Assembly (NCBI GenBank): GCA_023954415.1
Contig: JAMLIB010000008.1
Location: 1 to 64,000, forward strand
Direction of reading: 5' to 3'
DNA: 64,000 nt
From: Trueperaceae bacterium
Lineage (GTDB): Bacteria > Deinococcota > Deinococci > Deinococcales > Trueperaceae
The notes under the pieces were generated by a model. It worked only from the letters and a program-made list of their open reading frames with translations, was not told where the DNA came from and searched no databases. Both the position numbers and the translations under genes were made by a program. The stretch's first letter is position 1. The number at the start of each line of letters is the position of its first letter. Below, in pieces: positions 53,489 to 59,873 of this stretch.

Positions 53489-53585
53489 CCGCGAACTCAT
53501 CCGTTAGCCTCCGGTGTAGGCGCGGGTCGCCGGCCCGGAGCGACGGTTGCGGCCACCGTTCGCTACGGCGCCCCTATCATGTGCC

Positions 53586-54809
53586 ATGACCCGCACCGCG
53601 CGTCGCATCGCCGGGGCGCCCCGCCCCGACCGGCTCGTCCTGCACGTAGTCGCCGCCCTCCTGACGCTCTCCGGCGCCCCGGCCTTCGCCCAGCCGCCCG
53701 CCTTCCTCCAGGTCGGTTCGCGCCTCACGTGGGACGCGGGCGGCTCGAGCCTGTCCGGGAGCCGCTTCGTGCCGGACCCGAACGGCTGGGTCTGGCAGAA
53801 CGAGCAGTGGAACCGGGTGGAGGCGACGTACGGCGGCGGGGGCGTCGGGCTCGTCCAGATCGACATCCTGTCGGCGGGGGCCGAGGGCTTCGTCGGCGAC
53901 GTGCGGAGCTACCTCAACACCGACCTGCAGTCGGACGCCTACGCCCTGAGCGGGGTCGACGCCGTGGTGGGCGACACGGGCTCCTTGAGCCCCTACTGGG
54001 TGGCGCCTGCCCGCCTCGCCGCCATGCAGCCCGGCTTCGACGGCATGACGCGCGTGTGGCGCGGGCCGCGCCTTGTCAACGGGACGCAGCTCGACACCGT
54101 GTCCATCGCGACGATGACGCAAGCGAGCTACTCGAGCAACACCTACGACGTCGCTTCCGGGCTGCTGCTCTTCGGCGGCAGCATGGACGCCCAGCCCGGC
54201 GTGATGGCCAGCGACCCGAACGGAACGGTCGTGTTCCAGAACCAGGGCGCGGTCAGCTACAGCCACCTGCTGTTCCGCGGCACCAGGCAGTTGCAGGTGC
54301 CGTGGGCGGACCGGCCGGCGCCCGACTGGGCCACGCCGGGCCTGACGGTCCTCTACCAGGGGCAGAGCCGCGCCGAGATCGGCGGCGGCCTGCCGCCCCT
54401 GCCGGGCTCCGCGATGGCCATCAGCTACGTGTTCACCCAGCGCTTCGGCGGTGCGCTGCTCGGTTACCAGGTCTCCCAACTGGCCACGACGCAGGGCCTG
54501 CCGCCCGACCAGGTCAGGCTTAACCGCGCGTTCGGCAGCGCGGCCATGGGCGGCCTGTGGGCCGCGCCGGACGTGCTCGCCCGGCTCCAGGCCGGTCAGG
54601 TCCTCGATCAGGACCCGTTCACCGGCATGCAGGTCTACTTCGGCGGGGTGCAGAACGGCGCCGCCCTCGTCGTGTACCAGGGCCGCGGCGACGCGCTCGA
54701 GAACTACTACGACCCGAGCTCCGGGTTCCTGGTGTTCACCCGCTACCGCAAGCAGGCCGCGAACGTGGGCTTCCAGGTGAACGAGCTCTGGTACGCGGGT
54801 ACGCAGTGA
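53586..54809 (+). CDS. Secreted protein of unknown function
   Basis: A 407-residue exported protein that I do not recognise. The basic start (MTRTARRIAG) and hydrophobic LVLHVVAALLTLSGAPAFAQ form a signal peptide with AFA cleavage. The mature part is rich in Gly, aromatic and β-strand stretches (FLQVGSRLTWDAGGSSLSGS, LVYQGRGDALENYYD-like ends, GLLLFGGSMDAQ), with no Cys and no catalytic motif. It resembles a soluble β-structured envelope protein. TATCAT at 53575-53580 lies 5 bases before the ATG. The following convergent gene is the 84-residue member of the candidate BTAD regulon. Confidence 0.7.
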   Translation: MTRTARRIAGAPRPDRLVLHVVAALLTLSGAPAFAQPPAFLQVGSRLTWDAGGSSLSGSRFVPDPNGWVWQNEQWNRVEATYGGGGVGLVQIDILSAGAEGFVGDVRSYLNTDLQSDAYALSGVDAVVGDTGSLSPYWVAPARLAAMQPGFDGMTRVWRGPRLVNGTQLDTVSIATMTQASYSSNTYDVASGLLLFGGSMDAQPGVMASDPNGTVVFQNQGAVSYSHLLFRGTRQLQVPWADRPAPDWATPGLTVLYQGQSRAEIGGGLPPLPGSAMAISYVFTQRFGGALLGYQVSQLATTQGLPPDQVRLNRAFGSAAMGGLWAAPDVLARLQAGQVLDQDPFTGMQVYFGGVQNGAALVVYQGRGDALENYYDPSSGFLVFTRYRKQAANVGFQVNELWYAGTQ

Positions 54810-54833: not shown

Positions 54834-55088
54834 CTAAGTAGGGCCGGCGGCGCCCTCGGTAACGCCGGCGAGGCCGCGCCGGCGCAGTTCGGCCTGCGCC
54901 GACGCGAGGTCGCCGTAGGTCGCCAGCGGTGCGGAGCCGCTGACGACCCTGCGTTCCAAGCTCGCGCACAGCTCAGCCAACTCCTCGACGCTCAACGAGC
55001 CGAGGTCCGGCCGGGCCTCGGTCGCGAGCGCCCGACCGCCATCCGACCGGTTCGGCTCTTCGAAGACCCCCACGCCGTCCACTTCCAT
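54834..55088 (-). CDS. Small protein of unknown function, candidate BTAD-regulon member
   Basis: An 84-residue, mostly helical, acidic protein with no signal peptide, membrane segment or metal motif (LSVEELAELCASLERRVVSG, then YGDLASAQAELRRRGLAGV). I do not recognise it. It is supported as a gene by its promoter: TAGTCT 7 bases before the ATG, and upstream of that two TTAAG repeats 11 bases apart. It points away from the BTAD activator gene, whose start lies 141 bases away. A role in the activator's circuit is inferred from position and the shared promoter layout. Confidence 0.6.
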   Translation of the reverse strand: MEVDGVGVFEEPNRSDGGRALATEARPDLGSLSVEELAELCASLERRVVSGSAPLATYGDLASAQAELRRRGLAGVTEGAAGPT

Positions 55089-55095
55089 GGCGCGC

Positions 55096-55128
55096 AGACT
55101 ACTGCCGCCCCGCTTAATGCCGACTTAA
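55096..55128 (-). promoter_or_regulatory. Candidate activator-binding direct repeat and -10 box (84-residue gene)
   Basis: Read on the minus strand: TTAAG (55128-55124), 6 bases, TTAAG (55117-55113), 11 bases, TAGTCT (55101-55096), 7 bases, ATG. The repeat period is 11 bases, one helical turn. The same arrangement occurs at 59841-59873. Confidence 0.6.
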
Positions 55129-55181
55129 GAGCCCCGTCAGGCCCACCGCCGCACAGTAGGCGCCAGGAGCGCCCGGCTGGC

Positions 55182-55229
55182 TATACTCGGTTCCACGAAG
55201 CCACGGAGCGCGAAGCTCCTGGAGCGAAC
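55182..55229 (+). promoter_or_regulatory. Promoter and leader of the BTAD activator gene
   Basis: TATACT at 55182-55187 is a good -10 box. The leader contains a small hairpin (GGAGC 55205-55209 with GCTCC 55215-55219) and the ribosome-binding site GGAG at 55221-55224, 5 bases before ATG 55230. Confidence 0.5.
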
Positions 55230-58001
55230 ATGCTCAGCGTCCGGCCTACGGCAACCCCCTTCCACCTGCGCCGCACCAGGCTGCTGGAGCGCATGCCGGA
55301 CGAACCGGGCTTCATGGTGTGGCTCGAAGCGCCGTACGGCTACGGTAAGAGCGTCCTGGCCGGGCAGTGGGCCGAGGAGCTCGAGGGCGACGGCTGGCGC
55401 GTCGCGTGGCTCTCGCTCGCGGGCCGCGACCCACGCGCCCTGTTGGCCCAACGGCTCTCCCTCCCGGCCGCCGCGCCGTGGGGCATCATCGACGAGGAGC
55501 TGTGGCGCGAGCCGACCCTCCTCGTGTTGGAAGACCTGCAAGGCAGCGAAGACCTGGCGCCCATCCTCCAGCACCACCCCGGCCTGGTCCTCCTCGCGAG
55601 CCGCGGCCACCTCCCTTACCTCGAGCTACCCAAGCTGCGCACGCAAGGGCGCCTGCTGCACCTCACCAGCGAGCAGCTCGCGTTCCAGGAGGACGAGGCC
55701 GCCGAGCTCTTCGAGGACCGGGAGCGCGGCCACGAGGCGTGGCGCCTCACGCGGGGCTGGTCGCTGCCGCTCCACTTCGCCGCGCTGACGGGCGACCTCC
55801 CGCAGCAGGCGACCCTGTTGGAGGGCGTGAAGAGGAGCGTGAGCGAACGCGCGTGGCGTGAGCTGATGTTTCTCGCCACTGTGGACTTCCTCCCTAAGCA
55901 GGCGGCGGTAGCGGCCACGGGCGACCTCGCGCGCTCCGGGTTCCTCCAGACGCTCACGGACGGCTACCGCCTGCATCCGCTCATAGCCGAGAGCGTCCTC
56001 GGAGCGCACGACGCCGAGGTGAACGCCGCCCTCGGGGAGCAGGCCCACCGGCTCGAACCCGCGCGGCGCGGCGAGGCCTGCGAGCGCGCGCGCTTCCTGA
56101 CCGGGCTGAGGGAGGTCCTGATAGGCGGCGACGGCGCCACCGTGGCCCTGAACGTCCCCGAGGCGTTCCTCAGGTGGGACGCGGCGGTGCCGCCGAGCCC
56201 GGAGCTGGAGCGGCGCGCGCACGCCACGCTCGCGCGCCTGACGCTCGGACGCTTCGAGGATGCGCTCGACGACGCGCGCGAGCTCGCCACGAACGCCGCG
56301 TTGGCGCCGCGGCTGCGCTCGGCCATCGCCAGTCAGACGCTCTCCGGCCTCGGCGGGGTCAAGCGGTTCGCGCAAGCGGCCGAGTTCAGCGCCGTCGCTC
56401 TCGACCTCTTGGACGAGCTGGCGCCGCAGGAGGCGGGGGCGATCCTGAGGGGGCTCGGCCTCGTCGCCTTCGCGCAGGGCGACTACCCGGAGGCCGAGCG
56501 GAGCTTCCGAGCAGCTCTCGCCAAGTTCCAGGCGGCAGAGGCCGGCGAGCAACAGACGACCTTCGCGCTGGTCGGCCGCGCGAACCTAGCCAGCACGCTG
56601 TGGGAACTACACGGCGATCCGCACGAGTTGCTCGCCATGATCCGCGAGGTGGCCTCCGCCCCCGGCCTGGACGACGGGGCGTTCGTGACGTTCAAGCAGA
56701 ACCTGGCCGTCGCCCAGGCGTTCGTCGGTGACGAGGCCGGCGCCCTCGAGGCCACGCGGGCGGCCGCCACGAAGGCGCGCGACTACGGGGCGGTCGTCGT
56801 GAACTCGATGCTCGCGTACTTCGAGGGGGACACGGCGGCCTTCCCCGCCCTCATGGCCGGAGCGCGCAAGTGGGAGCGGTTCGAGCTCTCCGAACGCGTG
56901 AGCGCCCTCTGGCTCCGCGCGCTGCGCCGGGCCGGCGACCTCGATGCGGCCATCGACCTGCAGGAGGTCCTCGAGGTCGGCCCGTTCACGAAGCTCGAGC
57001 TCGTGTGGGCGTACGAGCGGCGCGGCGACCGCGCGCGGGCTAGGGAGCTGCTCGAACAGACGCGCGGCGCCTACCCGTACCGCGAGTTCCGCCTCCACTG
57101 GCATGCGGCCGCTTACCTCGTCGAACGCACTCACGAGCAGCTGGACGCCATCCTGGAGCTGAGCACCAACCGCGAGGGGATGCTCATCTACACCGGGGTG
57201 CCTCTCACCGCGCTGCCGCAGGACCGGCCCGAGCTAGCTCGCGCCTACCCCCTCGCCGAGGTCCTAGCCTCGGGCTGGACGGAGGCCATCCGCCTGCGCC
57301 TCGGCGAGGTGCCGCCGCTGGAGGTCAAGGTCCTGGGCGAGGTGAGCGTCGACCGCCTGGGCGAGCCGGTGCCCCTCACCGACCGCCAGCGGGAACTGGT
57401 CACCTTGCTCGCCTTGGGTGTCGGGCGCGAGGCGATCGCAGAGGAGATGTGGCCGGGCACGGACCAGAAGAAGCAGCGCAACAACCTCGGCGTCCAGCTC
57501 AACATGCTGCGCAAGCTCCTGGAGCCCTGGGGCGTGACGACCTACCTGCTCGAGAGCGGTCTGACGCGCTTCGAGTCGGACCACGCGCGCCTCGAGGCGG
57601 CGCTAGGGCGTGGCGACACGGAGACGGTGACCGCGCTGTACCGCGGTCCGCTCGCGCCGGGTGTGGACGGTGACACCGTCGTCGAGGAGCGCCTCAACCT
57701 GCACGAGCGCGTCCTGGACGCCCTGCTGGCGGGCGCCGAGGCGAACGCCTCCGCTGACGTCAGCGAACCGGACGGCACCCGGAGGGTCGAGGACGCCGTT
57801 CGCTACCTGAAGCGCCTGCTCGAGCTGGAGCCCATGCATGAGGAGGCCGTGCAGGTGTTGCTCGGCCTCCTCATGCGTCTTGGGCGCCGTAGGGACGCGC
57901 AACGCACGTTGGAGCGCTTCGCCCAGCTCTTGCGGCAAGAGACGGGGCTGGAACCGCAGCCCAGCACGCTTGCCCTGCTCGACAAGGCGGAGGGCGGCTA
58001 A
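55230..58001 (+). CDS. Large ATPase/TPR transcription activator with C-terminal winged helix and BTAD domain
   Basis: A 923-residue predicted signal-integrating regulator. The N-terminus is a STAND/MalT-like P-loop ATPase with Walker A APYGYGKSV at about 33-41 and a Walker-B-like LLVLEDLQG. Residues ~300-650 are helical TPR-type repeats. A winged helix like OmpR/SARP DNA-binding domains lies at about 697-790 (LEVKVLGEVSVDRLGEPVPL, AIAEEMWPGTDQKKQRNNLG, then LNMLRKLLEPWG), followed by the BTAD domain to the end (AVRYLKRLLELEPMHEEAVQ). Its stop overlaps that of the converging secreted-protein gene by two bases. CTTAA repeats lie about 54 bases before its own -10. Confidence 0.85.
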   Translation: MLSVRPTATPFHLRRTRLLERMPDEPGFMVWLEAPYGYGKSVLAGQWAEELEGDGWRVAWLSLAGRDPRALLAQRLSLPAAAPWGIIDEELWREPTLLVLEDLQGSEDLAPILQHHPGLVLLASRGHLPYLELPKLRTQGRLLHLTSEQLAFQEDEAAELFEDRERGHEAWRLTRGWSLPLHFAALTGDLPQQATLLEGVKRSVSERAWRELMFLATVDFLPKQAAVAATGDLARSGFLQTLTDGYRLHPLIAESVLGAHDAEVNAALGEQAHRLEPARRGEACERARFLTGLREVLIGGDGATVALNVPEAFLRWDAAVPPSPELERRAHATLARLTLGRFEDALDDARELATNAALAPRLRSAIASQTLSGLGGVKRFAQAAEFSAVALDLLDELAPQEAGAILRGLGLVAFAQGDYPEAERSFRAALAKFQAAEAGEQQTTFALVGRANLASTLWELHGDPHELLAMIREVASAPGLDDGAFVTFKQNLAVAQAFVGDEAGALEATRAAATKARDYGAVVVNSMLAYFEGDTAAFPALMAGARKWERFELSERVSALWLRALRRAGDLDAAIDLQEVLEVGPFTKLELVWAYERRGDRARARELLEQTRGAYPYREFRLHWHAAAYLVERTHEQLDAILELSTNREGMLIYTGVPLTALPQDRPELARAYPLAEVLASGWTEAIRLRLGEVPPLEVKVLGEVSVDRLGEPVPLTDRQRELVTLLALGVGREAIAEEMWPGTDQKKQRNNLGVQLNMLRKLLEPWGVTTYLLESGLTRFESDHARLEAALGRGDTETVTALYRGPLAPGVDGDTVVEERLNLHERVLDALLAGAEANASADVSEPDGTRRVEDAVRYLKRLLELEPMHEEAVQVLLGLLMRLGRRRDAQRTLERFAQLLRQETGLEPQPSTLALLDKAEGG

Positions 58002-58792
58002 GGCGCCCCGTAGTACGGGGTCCTGCTCCCGTCGGGGTTGATCTGGTACCACACGTTGAAGGCGGGGTCGAAGACCAGCGGCAAGCCGGTCGGCGTCTGG
58101 TAGTAGGTGTTCTGGCTAGGGGCGTAGGGCAGGTCGTACGTGGTCCCCGTGGTGGGGTCCGTGTACTGGTCCTCCTCGCGGATGACGGTGCGGTTGAAGT
58201 CGGCGACGCCCGCCTCCTGCGCCTGTTGCTGCTGCCACCAGGCGGCCATGGCCGCGTCGTTGGCCGCGTCGCGCTGCTTCACGCCCGCCATCCAGGCGTC
58301 GAAGCTCGCCTGCTGGCTGGCCTGCGCCGCCTTCGAGCCCTGGTAAGCCAGTTGGCAGTCGAGCGGGTTCTGCTGGCAGTGGATCGCCTGCCCCATCTGC
58401 AGGGCGTAGGAGTCGGGCGAGGTCATGTCGCCCGTCGTCTTGCGGTAGAGGTCGATGAAGTACTTGTTGTACTCGTCCAACTTCGCCTGGATCTGCTGAC
58501 CGATGAGGTCCATCTGCGCCATCGGATCGAGGTTGGCGTTGTACATGCCGCCCATGGTCGGGTCGTAGGGCATGCCGTACGCGCCACCCATCGTCGGGTC
58601 GTACTGGTAGCCGTACATGCCGCCCATGGTCGGGTCGTAGGGCATGCCGTACATGCCACCCATGGTGGGATCGTACTGGTAGCCGTAGGGGTACCCGGCC
58701 GGGTAGCCGTACGGGTAGTACTGGCCAGCGGCCAGGCCGAGCGCCGCCGCGCAAAGCAGCGCCAGCGCGCTGCGTCGTCCGAACTCACTCAC
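57998..58792 (-). CDS. Secreted protein with DPTMGG tandem repeats
   Basis: A 264-residue exported protein, probably the second gene of a two-gene unit. The signal peptide is ALALLCAAALGLAAG. It is followed by Tyr/Pro/Gly-rich repeats: four copies of a unit like YDPTMGGMYGMP (residues about 37-84). The C-terminal ~170 residues are helical and Gln/Ala-rich (QQIQAKLDEYNKYFIDLYRK, then ASFDAWMAGVKQRDAANDAA), ending in LPLVFDPAFNVWYQINPDG. I do not recognise the family. GTG at 58792 has AAGGAGG 5 bases upstream. It converges on the BTAD gene with overlapping stops. Confidence 0.72.
   Translation of the reverse strand: MSEFGRRSALALLCAAALGLAAGQYYPYGYPAGYPYGYQYDPTMGGMYGMPYDPTMGGMYGYQYDPTMGGAYGMPYDPTMGGMYNANLDPMAQMDLIGQQIQAKLDEYNKYFIDLYRKTTGDMTSPDSYALQMGQAIHCQQNPLDCQLAYQGSKAAQASQQASFDAWMAGVKQRDAANDAAMAAWWQQQQAQEAGVADFNRTVIREEDQYTDPTTGTTYDLPYAPSQNTYYQTPTGLPLVFDPAFNVWYQINPDGSRTPYYGAP
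58541..58682 (-). repeat. Coding tandem repeat (DPTMGG unit)
   Basis: Four near-identical copies of a ~36-base unit encoding [YQ/MP]YDPTMGG[M/A]YG. Differences between copies are mostly third-position, so the repeats are kept by selection on protein sequence rather than being a fresh duplication. Confidence 0.75.
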
Positions 58793-58866
58793 CTGCGCCT
58801 CCTTCCGTAGGCCGCCATGAACGGCGCGGCGCGTGACCTTCCCGCTTCCCCGATCGCCGGTCGCGC

Positions 58867-59817
58867 TCACGGCGTGGGTTGGTTGGAGGTCTTCTGGAGC
58901 ATGTAGGTCGTGTCACCGATGTCCAGCATCGTGTAGCCGCCGTCCTCGTAGACCCAGAACTCGAACTGGTTGCCTTGGCCGTGGACCGACCCGTCGTCGT
59001 CGATGTGCGCCTGGAACTGGTAGCGCTGCCCCTGGTCCTGGATGTAGCCGACGTAGCCGCCTTGCGCGCCCTGCAAGGAGAGCACGAACGCGCCGTTGTT
59101 GCCGACGTAGGTGCCCGTCATGTCGCCGGTCTGCGTACCGAAGCCGGGCTGGGTCGGCGTACTCGGCTGCGTGCCGAAGCCGGGCTGGGTCGGCATACCC
59201 GGCTGGGTGGGCATGCCGGGTTGGGTCGGCGTGCCGAAGCCCGGCTGCGTCGGCATGCCAGGCTGGGTGGGCGTACCGAAACCGGGTTGGGTGGGCATGC
59301 CGGGCTGGGTGCCGAAGCCCGGCTGCGTGCCGAAACCGGGTTGGGTGGGCATGCCAGGTTGGGTGGGCATGCCGGGTTGGGTCGGCGTACCGGGCTGGGT
59401 GCCGGCGCCGGGGTTCACCGGCACGGCCCCTGGAGGCGGGGTCGGGAAGCCGGTCTGAGCGCCGCCCTGGCGCTGCAGGACCATCGTCTGCCCCTGCCCG
59501 ACGGGCTGGCCGTTCGGCCCCATCTCGTAGAACTGGACCTGCAGCATCGAACCGTCCGGGCTGACCTGCGCTTGAAAACCGAGCACGCCCTGTTGCGACT
59601 GCACGGCGCCGTACGCGTACTGCCCGTCGGCCTGCCCCTGCAGCGGGAACTGGCCGTTGCCAGTGATGACGGCCCCCGACAAGGTGCCGTTCTGAGCCTG
59701 CTGGAACGCGATGCTGATGCCGTTGGCCTGGTCGACGAAGGTGCCGTTGAACTGCTGGGCGAGCGCCGAGGTGAGAGTCAAGGCCAAGGCCACGAAGACT
59801 AAGGTGCGGATGCGCAC
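58867..59817 (-). CDS. Secreted protein with TQPG repeats between two β domains
   Basis: A 316-residue exported protein. The signal peptide is RIRTLVFVALALTLTSALAQ. An N-terminal β domain (FNGTFVDQANGISIAFQQAQ, ending near residue 130) and a C-terminal β domain (MTGTYVGNNGAFVLSLQGAQ) look like two copies of one fold, linked by ~100 residues of TQPGMPTQPGFGTQ-type repeats. No enzyme motif. GTG at 59817 has GGAGG 5 bases upstream. Its promoter shows TTAAG-N6-TTAAG-N11-TAACCT. The DPTMGG-repeat gene follows 74 bases later on the same strand, so the pair is probably co-transcribed. Confidence 0.75.
   Translation of the reverse strand: MRIRTLVFVALALTLTSALAQQFNGTFVDQANGISIAFQQAQNGTLSGAVITGNGQFPLQGQADGQYAYGAVQSQQGVLGFQAQVSPDGSMLQVQFYEMGPNGQPVGQGQTMVLQRQGGAQTGFPTPPPGAVPVNPGAGTQPGTPTQPGMPTQPGMPTQPGFGTQPGFGTQPGMPTQPGFGTPTQPGMPTQPGFGTPTQPGMPTQPGMPTQPGFGTQPSTPTQPGFGTQTGDMTGTYVGNNGAFVLSLQGAQGGYVGYIQDQGQRYQFQAHIDDDGSVHGQGNQFEFWVYEDGGYTMLDIGDTTYMLQKTSNQPTP
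59132..59405 (-). repeat. Coding TQPG tandem repeat
   Basis: About 20 copies of a 9-15 base-multiple unit encoding TQPG(M/F)(P/G) within the 316-residue secreted protein. The linker probably spans a distance in the envelope. Copy number is likely variable between strains. Confidence 0.75.
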
Positions 59818-59840
59818 GGTCTCCTCCTTAAGGTAAGCCA

Positions 59841-59873
59841 AGGTTAGGAGAGGGGTGCTTAAATCCCGCTTAA
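59841..59873 (-). promoter_or_regulatory. Candidate activator-binding direct repeat and -10 box (secreted repeat-protein pair)
   Basis: Read on the minus strand: TTAAG (59873-59869), 6 bases, TTAAG (59862-59858), 11 bases, TAACCT (59846-59841), then a short leader with AAGGAGG and GTG 59817. The spacing is identical to that at 55096-55128. Confidence 0.6.

Follow-up and report, generated by a model that had tools for sequence, protein, structure and literature searches.

The DNA analyzed here is a stretch of 64,000 nucleotides (the window, 71% G+C) from a Trueperaceae genome of 3.2 Mb in 30 contigs. The central gene of the locus (positions 55230 to 58001, plus strand) encodes a protein of 923 amino acids, called the activator below, in which a MalT-like STAND ATPase (about residues 1 to 320) is followed by a TPR superhelix (about 326 to 690) and a C-terminal winged helix and BTAD domain. 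Divergent from it lies p84 (54834 to 55088, minus strand), a gene of 84 codons whose product has no signal peptide. A pair of genes for secreted proteins, sec1 (58867 to 59817, minus strand) and, behind it, sec2 (57998 to 58792, minus strand), presumably forms one transcript. The start of sec1 is most likely the GTG at 59817, which is preceded by GGAGGAG (MRIRTLVFVALALTLTSALAQ), and not the TTG beside the -10 box of its promoter. The protein has a signal peptide, and its model shows two eight-stranded beta domains separated by a disordered linker of PTQPG-type repeats; the closest solved folds to these domains were avidin-type barrels, which matched weakly (best E value of 1.3e-3). The second secreted repeat protein, sec2, starts at GTG 58792 with the signal peptide MSEFGRRSALALLCAAALGLAAG and has homologues at L027 to L029 and L123 (L numbers denote loci and G numbers genomes, G000 being the own genome and the others those compared). 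A further gene for a secreted protein of 420 amino acids (53547 to 54809, plus strand) adjoins p84. No box of the kind described next was found before it with up to two mismatches, and its homologue in G004 (L033 8589) lies beside a paralogous activator and does have a box.

The first-pass annotation had pointed to two sites of the form TTAAG-N6-TTAAG-N11-TANNNT, and both were found to be exact. Box 1 with its -10 box (55128 to 55096, minus strand) reads TTAAG-TCGGCA-TTAAG-CGGGGCGGCAG-TAGTCT and forms the promoter of p84, and box 2 (59873 to 59841, minus strand) reads TTAAG-CGGGAT-TTAAG-CACCCCTCTCC-TAACCT and forms the promoter of the sec1-sec2 pair. These were the only two sites with the full pattern within the window, and 100 dinucleotide shuffles of the window gave no match. 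In a pattern search of the whole 3.2-Mb genome the TTAAG pair occurred three times, each time with TANNNT at N11, against a chance expectation of 0.04 pairs under a first-order Markov model of the window and no match to the reversed control pattern. The two copies had been judged unlikely to be due to chance, a view that these numbers bear out, and the pattern, at three pairs per genome, is not of the frequent kind without promoter context that had been named as evidence against it. The third pair, at G000:C1:139008, lies before a gene for an 813-amino-acid lipoprotein (MKHENSKTMLAALYLVVPLLWLLVSCGG), whose ATG is 40 bases from the start of the box, and gave the first hint of a system that extends beyond the locus.

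The domain reading of the activator (P-loop ATPase, TPR, and an OmpR/SARP-type winged helix with BTAD) was confirmed by profile comparison, structure prediction, and fold search. Pfam reported BTAD (PF03704) at residues 789 to 916 (E value of 4e-12), a weak Trans_reg_C match at 711 to 766, and TPR repeats, with no receiver domain among its matches. A profile of 18 orthologues matched the MalT structure 8bob at residues 5 to 195 (E value of 2.4e-12) and the AfsR structure 8hvr at residues 688 to 896 (E value of 6e-8). In the AlphaFold model (mean pLDDT of 91), the ATPase part leads into a long TPR superhelix, and the C-terminal region folds into a winged helix and then the BTAD helices; Foldseek matches to the model included the STAND-TPR protein 6mfv, MalT (8bob), the AfsR transcription complex (8k60 and 8hvr), and EmbR (2ff4 and 2fez). 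From the predicted secondary structure and an alignment, the winged helix was placed at residues 697 to 783 (57318 to 57578, plus strand), with the recognition helix at 746 to 764; the model together with the Pfam match places the BTAD domain at residues 784 to 922 (57579 to 57995, plus strand).

This architecture combines features of several known regulators. Like MalT and the LAL regulators, the activator has an N-terminal ATPase with a GYGKS Walker A loop, then TPR-type helices and a C-terminal output; unlike them, it lacks the C-terminal LuxR-type helix-turn-helix that is their hallmark and carries the winged helix and BTAD domain in its place. Its score against the MalT equivalog NF003420 was 42 bits, below the curated cutoff of 537, and no link to maltose genes was seen. 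PimR likewise fuses a SARP output to a LAL/ATPase part and has boxes of 22 nucleotides made of two direct repeats with an 11-bp period (PMC5930380), but its parts are in the reverse order, with the SARP part N-terminal, and its sequence and targets differ. EmbR of Mycobacterium tuberculosis shares the winged helix-BTAD fold but has an N-terminal DNA-binding part, an FHA sensor, and other targets. The closest parallel is AfsR among the Streptomyces SARPs, which acts at the afsS promoter: it too joins an OmpR-type winged helix and BTAD to a STAND ATPase and TPR in one protein, and its two 11-bp direct repeats cover the -35 region with the spacing to the -10 box that is seen here (PMC10936776). 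At the level of sequence, the promoters described here have the 11-bp direct repeats close to the -10 box that typify SARP targets. In contrast to AfsR and to the N-terminal placement that is usual in SARPs, the DNA-binding part of the activator sits at the C terminus (residues 697 to 922 of 923), its predicted targets are genes for exported proteins rather than antibiotic or other secondary-metabolite clusters, and the host belongs to the Deinococcota rather than the actinomycetes. The base-contacting residues of AfsR (T88 and R92) were not conserved in our alignment, in keeping with the different half-site, TTAAG; the AfsR contacts therefore cannot simply be transferred to the activator.

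With positions -12 to -7 assigned to TANNNT, the upstream TTAAG spans -39 to -35 and the downstream TTAAG -28 to -24. In the AfsR complex, the repeats span -40 to -30 and -29 to -19, and each AfsR protein contacts the first 8 bp of its repeat and engages sigma region 4 (PMC10936776), so that by position both TTAAG copies fall inside the stretches that AfsR contacts on its own repeats. In Deinococcus-Thermus, TANNNT is the usual form of the -10 box and leaderless mRNAs are common (PMC3160421). In many targets the ATG starts 38 to 41 bases from the start of the box, which is the expected transcript start, and most of the remaining targets have a Shine-Dalgarno sequence and a start at 51 to 78 bases; this regular spacing supports the assignment of promoters and start sites. 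As p84 starts 7 bases after its -10 box, its mRNA would probably be leaderless. Because the flanking G varies (TTAAT, TTAAC, and TTAAA occur at sites of equal geometry and target class), the better core of the putative site is TTAA-N7-TTAA-N12-TANNNT. The idea that exact TTAAG is the full determinant was given up in favor of this core. Since CTTAAG is palindromic, the exact TTAAG pair is in some cases found on the wrong strand. This was so for two sites in G004, where the opposite strand gave the functional reading, with TTAAT-N6-TTAAG-N11-TAGGCT in front of a sec1-type gene and TTAAC-N6-TTAAT-N11-TAGCCT in front of the p84 homologue.

The same locus was then compared in relatives, the nearest named ones being Trueperaceae and other Deinococcota metagenome assemblies. 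Full-length orthologues of the activator at 90, 88, 58, and 56% identity keep the box before p84. In six genomes, which represent two genera, p84 or its homologue stands divergent to the activator, and in all six its promoter carries the box in exact or degenerate form; box 1 is kept in G005, G003, G001, and G004 and degenerate in G046, which belongs to the other genus. Box 2 is kept in G005 and G003, and boxes precede homologues in G001 (two), G004, G006, and G030. The sec1 family thus recurs behind boxes in other genomes, partly away from the activator, with one gene 9 kb off in G001 and those of G004 on other contigs. More distant full-length relatives and paralogues (35 to 44% identity) also have boxes nearby, which appear to drive other exported genes. 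Conservation at orthologous loci, suggested at the outset as a check, accordingly reaches down to 35 to 40% protein identity. Eight distant loci (35 to 41% identity) were newly added from a scan of named contigs; they come from Thermaceae, an Armatimonadota MAG, and other sources. Seven of the eight had a box when up to one mismatch was allowed in the 11 fixed positions, and no box turned up in shuffled versions of these loci or in 50 kb of the window outside the locus. In our overall tally, which counted as a box either an exact TTAAG pair or a site matching at least 10 of the 11 positions, 28 of the 32 full-length activator genes examined had a box within 6 kb, and four (G043, G045, G019, and L196) had no recognizable one. 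At three Thermaceae loci (L203, L204, and L206) one box lies 39 to 40 bases before the start of the activator-encoding open frame, which suggests autoregulation in that family; L203 and L204 have a second box behind the activator, before a gene for an exported protein, and the contig of L206 ends behind the activator. Relatives with one-mismatch boxes also occur in assemblies labeled Burkholderiales and Ideonella (L201 and L210), which may reflect horizontal transfer or a binning error.

A genome-wide scan with the core promoter pattern yielded 22 sites in the five activator-bearing genomes of the genus (four in G000, six in G001, two in G003, and five each in G004 and G005) and none with the control pattern. 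By inspection, the first gene behind these sites encodes an exported protein (signal peptide or lipobox) in 17 cases and p84 in the other 5; a crude automatic screen found export signals behind 14 of the 22, compared with 6.3% of random positions. The own genome has seven sites when one mismatch is allowed (control, 0), all of them before exported genes or p84. The first-pass annotation had proposed a local regulon and suggested scanning for enrichment before secreted genes. Sites outside the locus again precede genes for exported proteins, so that the regulon stands, but it is not local, the sites being scattered through the genome. The 813-amino-acid lipoprotein family was present in the five activator-bearing genomes of the genus and in 0 of 13 other family genomes searched, and most of its members have a box upstream. 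At L037 (7049 to 12578, G000:C1) two large lipoproteins of this family, 82% identical, lie in tandem, and the box is found at the first copy only.

The sites also follow the activator. Ten of the 15 TTAAG pairs in six genomes of the genus (control, 0) lie no more than 5 kb from a full-length activator gene, although such stretches make up 0.9% of the DNA (P of about 6e-18, uncorrected for shared ancestry). Most of the genomes compared are metagenome assemblies. In a family survey of 39 genomes, sites occurred in 7 of 9 genomes with the activator versus 2 of 25 without it (Fisher P of 2e-4), a comparison that was limited to genomes with zero control matches and, like all counts over related genomes and orthologous sites, is not one of independent observations. 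The absence of boxes from activator-free genomes is due in part to the absence of the target families there. The AT-richer genomes G006 and G030 had background matches and some sites with no sensible gene behind them, and the box is less diagnostic in such genomes, where the controls are nonzero.

An OmpR-family response regulator might own the boxes instead and control both the exported proteins and the genes around the BTAD protein, which would then be a mere neighbor or target. An 11-bp repeat logic is common to OmpR-type winged helices. CtrA of the Alphaproteobacteria recognizes the same core, TTAA-N7-TTAA (PMC9437464), a resemblance that concerns the site only, as CtrA is a phosphorelay response regulator of an unrelated lineage. 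Against this account, boxes accompany full-length activator genes across many genera, even where paralogues sit at new places. A box common to other BTAD proteins was rejected, since only 2 of 26 loci of such proteins had one, both in lower-GC genomes. G002, which is of the same genus and has no full-length activator orthologue, had no core promoter site. G002 has a different BTAD regulator, of 997 amino acids, with the winged helix and BTAD domain at the N terminus as in classical large SARPs, and around it lie three GTAACG-N5-GTAACG direct repeats (L242, G002:C87, at 11210, 9773, and 5516, minus strand) whose period and geometry equal those of the TTAAG boxes. In two of the three, TANNNT follows at exactly N11, and the genes behind these two encode a sec1-like exported protein and a lipoprotein. 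A different regulator thus comes with a different box sequence but with unchanged geometry and target class, which speaks against binding by an unrelated response regulator; we consider that account unlikely. The G002 case also suggests a ready system in which the half-site preference of BTAD proteins shifts within a fixed geometry.

A second alternative is that the activator or a paralogue binds the boxes as repressor sites or within a mixed circuit and switches the exported genes off. Sequence does not tell whether a site activates or represses, and the box covers the -35 region; yet the box replaces the -35 hexamer, its distance from the -10 box is that of AfsR-activated promoters (PMC10936776), and BTAD proteins of such geometry are activators, which makes repression very improbable. 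Finally, the repeats could have paired by chance in GC-rich DNA or reflect a promoter style that is general to the lineage. The window holds just two sites, the palindrome CTTAAG inflates one-strand matches, and many palindromic CTTAAG pairs of a different type occur in G025. An expected number of 0.04 or less per genome, the empty reversed control, conservation across genera, and the fixed -10 distance and target class leave chance with next to no likelihood. A general Trueperaceae promoter style was ruled out by the finding of no site in 23 activator-free genomes with zero control.

Our preferred reading, to which we assign a probability of about 85%, is that the repeats, which lie over the -35 region, are bound by the activator and that this binding turns on exported-protein genes scattered through the genome. 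The boxes with their geometry, rarity, and conservation, the target classes, and the domain architecture, all read from sequence, form its basis; from these we infer the binding, activation as its direction, and feedback by p84. The 923-amino-acid protein would be a STAND-type switch with a SARP-type output, whose ATPase/TPR part would receive a signal and whose C-terminal winged helix-BTAD parts would then engage DNA, side by side on two half-sites one helical turn apart (TTAA-N7-TTAA, at best TTAAG-N6-TTAAG). The bound activator would recruit RNA polymerase to the TANNNT box 11 bases downstream; activation, rather than repression, is suggested by the box geometry and the known behavior of BTAD activators. 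We predict as its targets p84 and the sec1-sec2 pair and, elsewhere in the genome, a minimum of five further genes for exported proteins, mainly for sec1-like secreted proteins and for one large lipoprotein family. The p84 product, made from the divergent promoter, would probably be a feedback partner of the activator, a guess from the layout.

The papers searched for Truepera or Deinococcus described no regulator of this kind, and the locus very probably represents a previously unnoticed surface-protein switch with the box as the putative binding site of the activator. It offers a predicted binding site, regulator, and target list for a bacterial group. A SARP promoter logic described chiefly for the control of antibiotics in Streptomyces would here apply to the exported proteome of Deinococcota, in a protein that carries its DNA-binding part at the opposite end from known SARPs. 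It is conceivable, if rather doubtful, that Trueperaceae and their relatives hold parallel STAND-BTAD switches in which the promoter geometry is fixed, the half-site is specific to each switch (TTAAG here, GTAACG in G002), and each switch serves its own bank of exported repeat proteins and lipoproteins, and that p84 represents a novel class of small anti-activator, expressed from the switch's divergent promoter.

Repeats of another kind were observed in G025, where L067 to L097 gave 27 TTAAG-N6-TTAAG matches against 1 in the control. These were mostly palindromic CTTAAG-N5-CTTAAG, read on both strands, and resemble a repeated element or binding site of a different kind.
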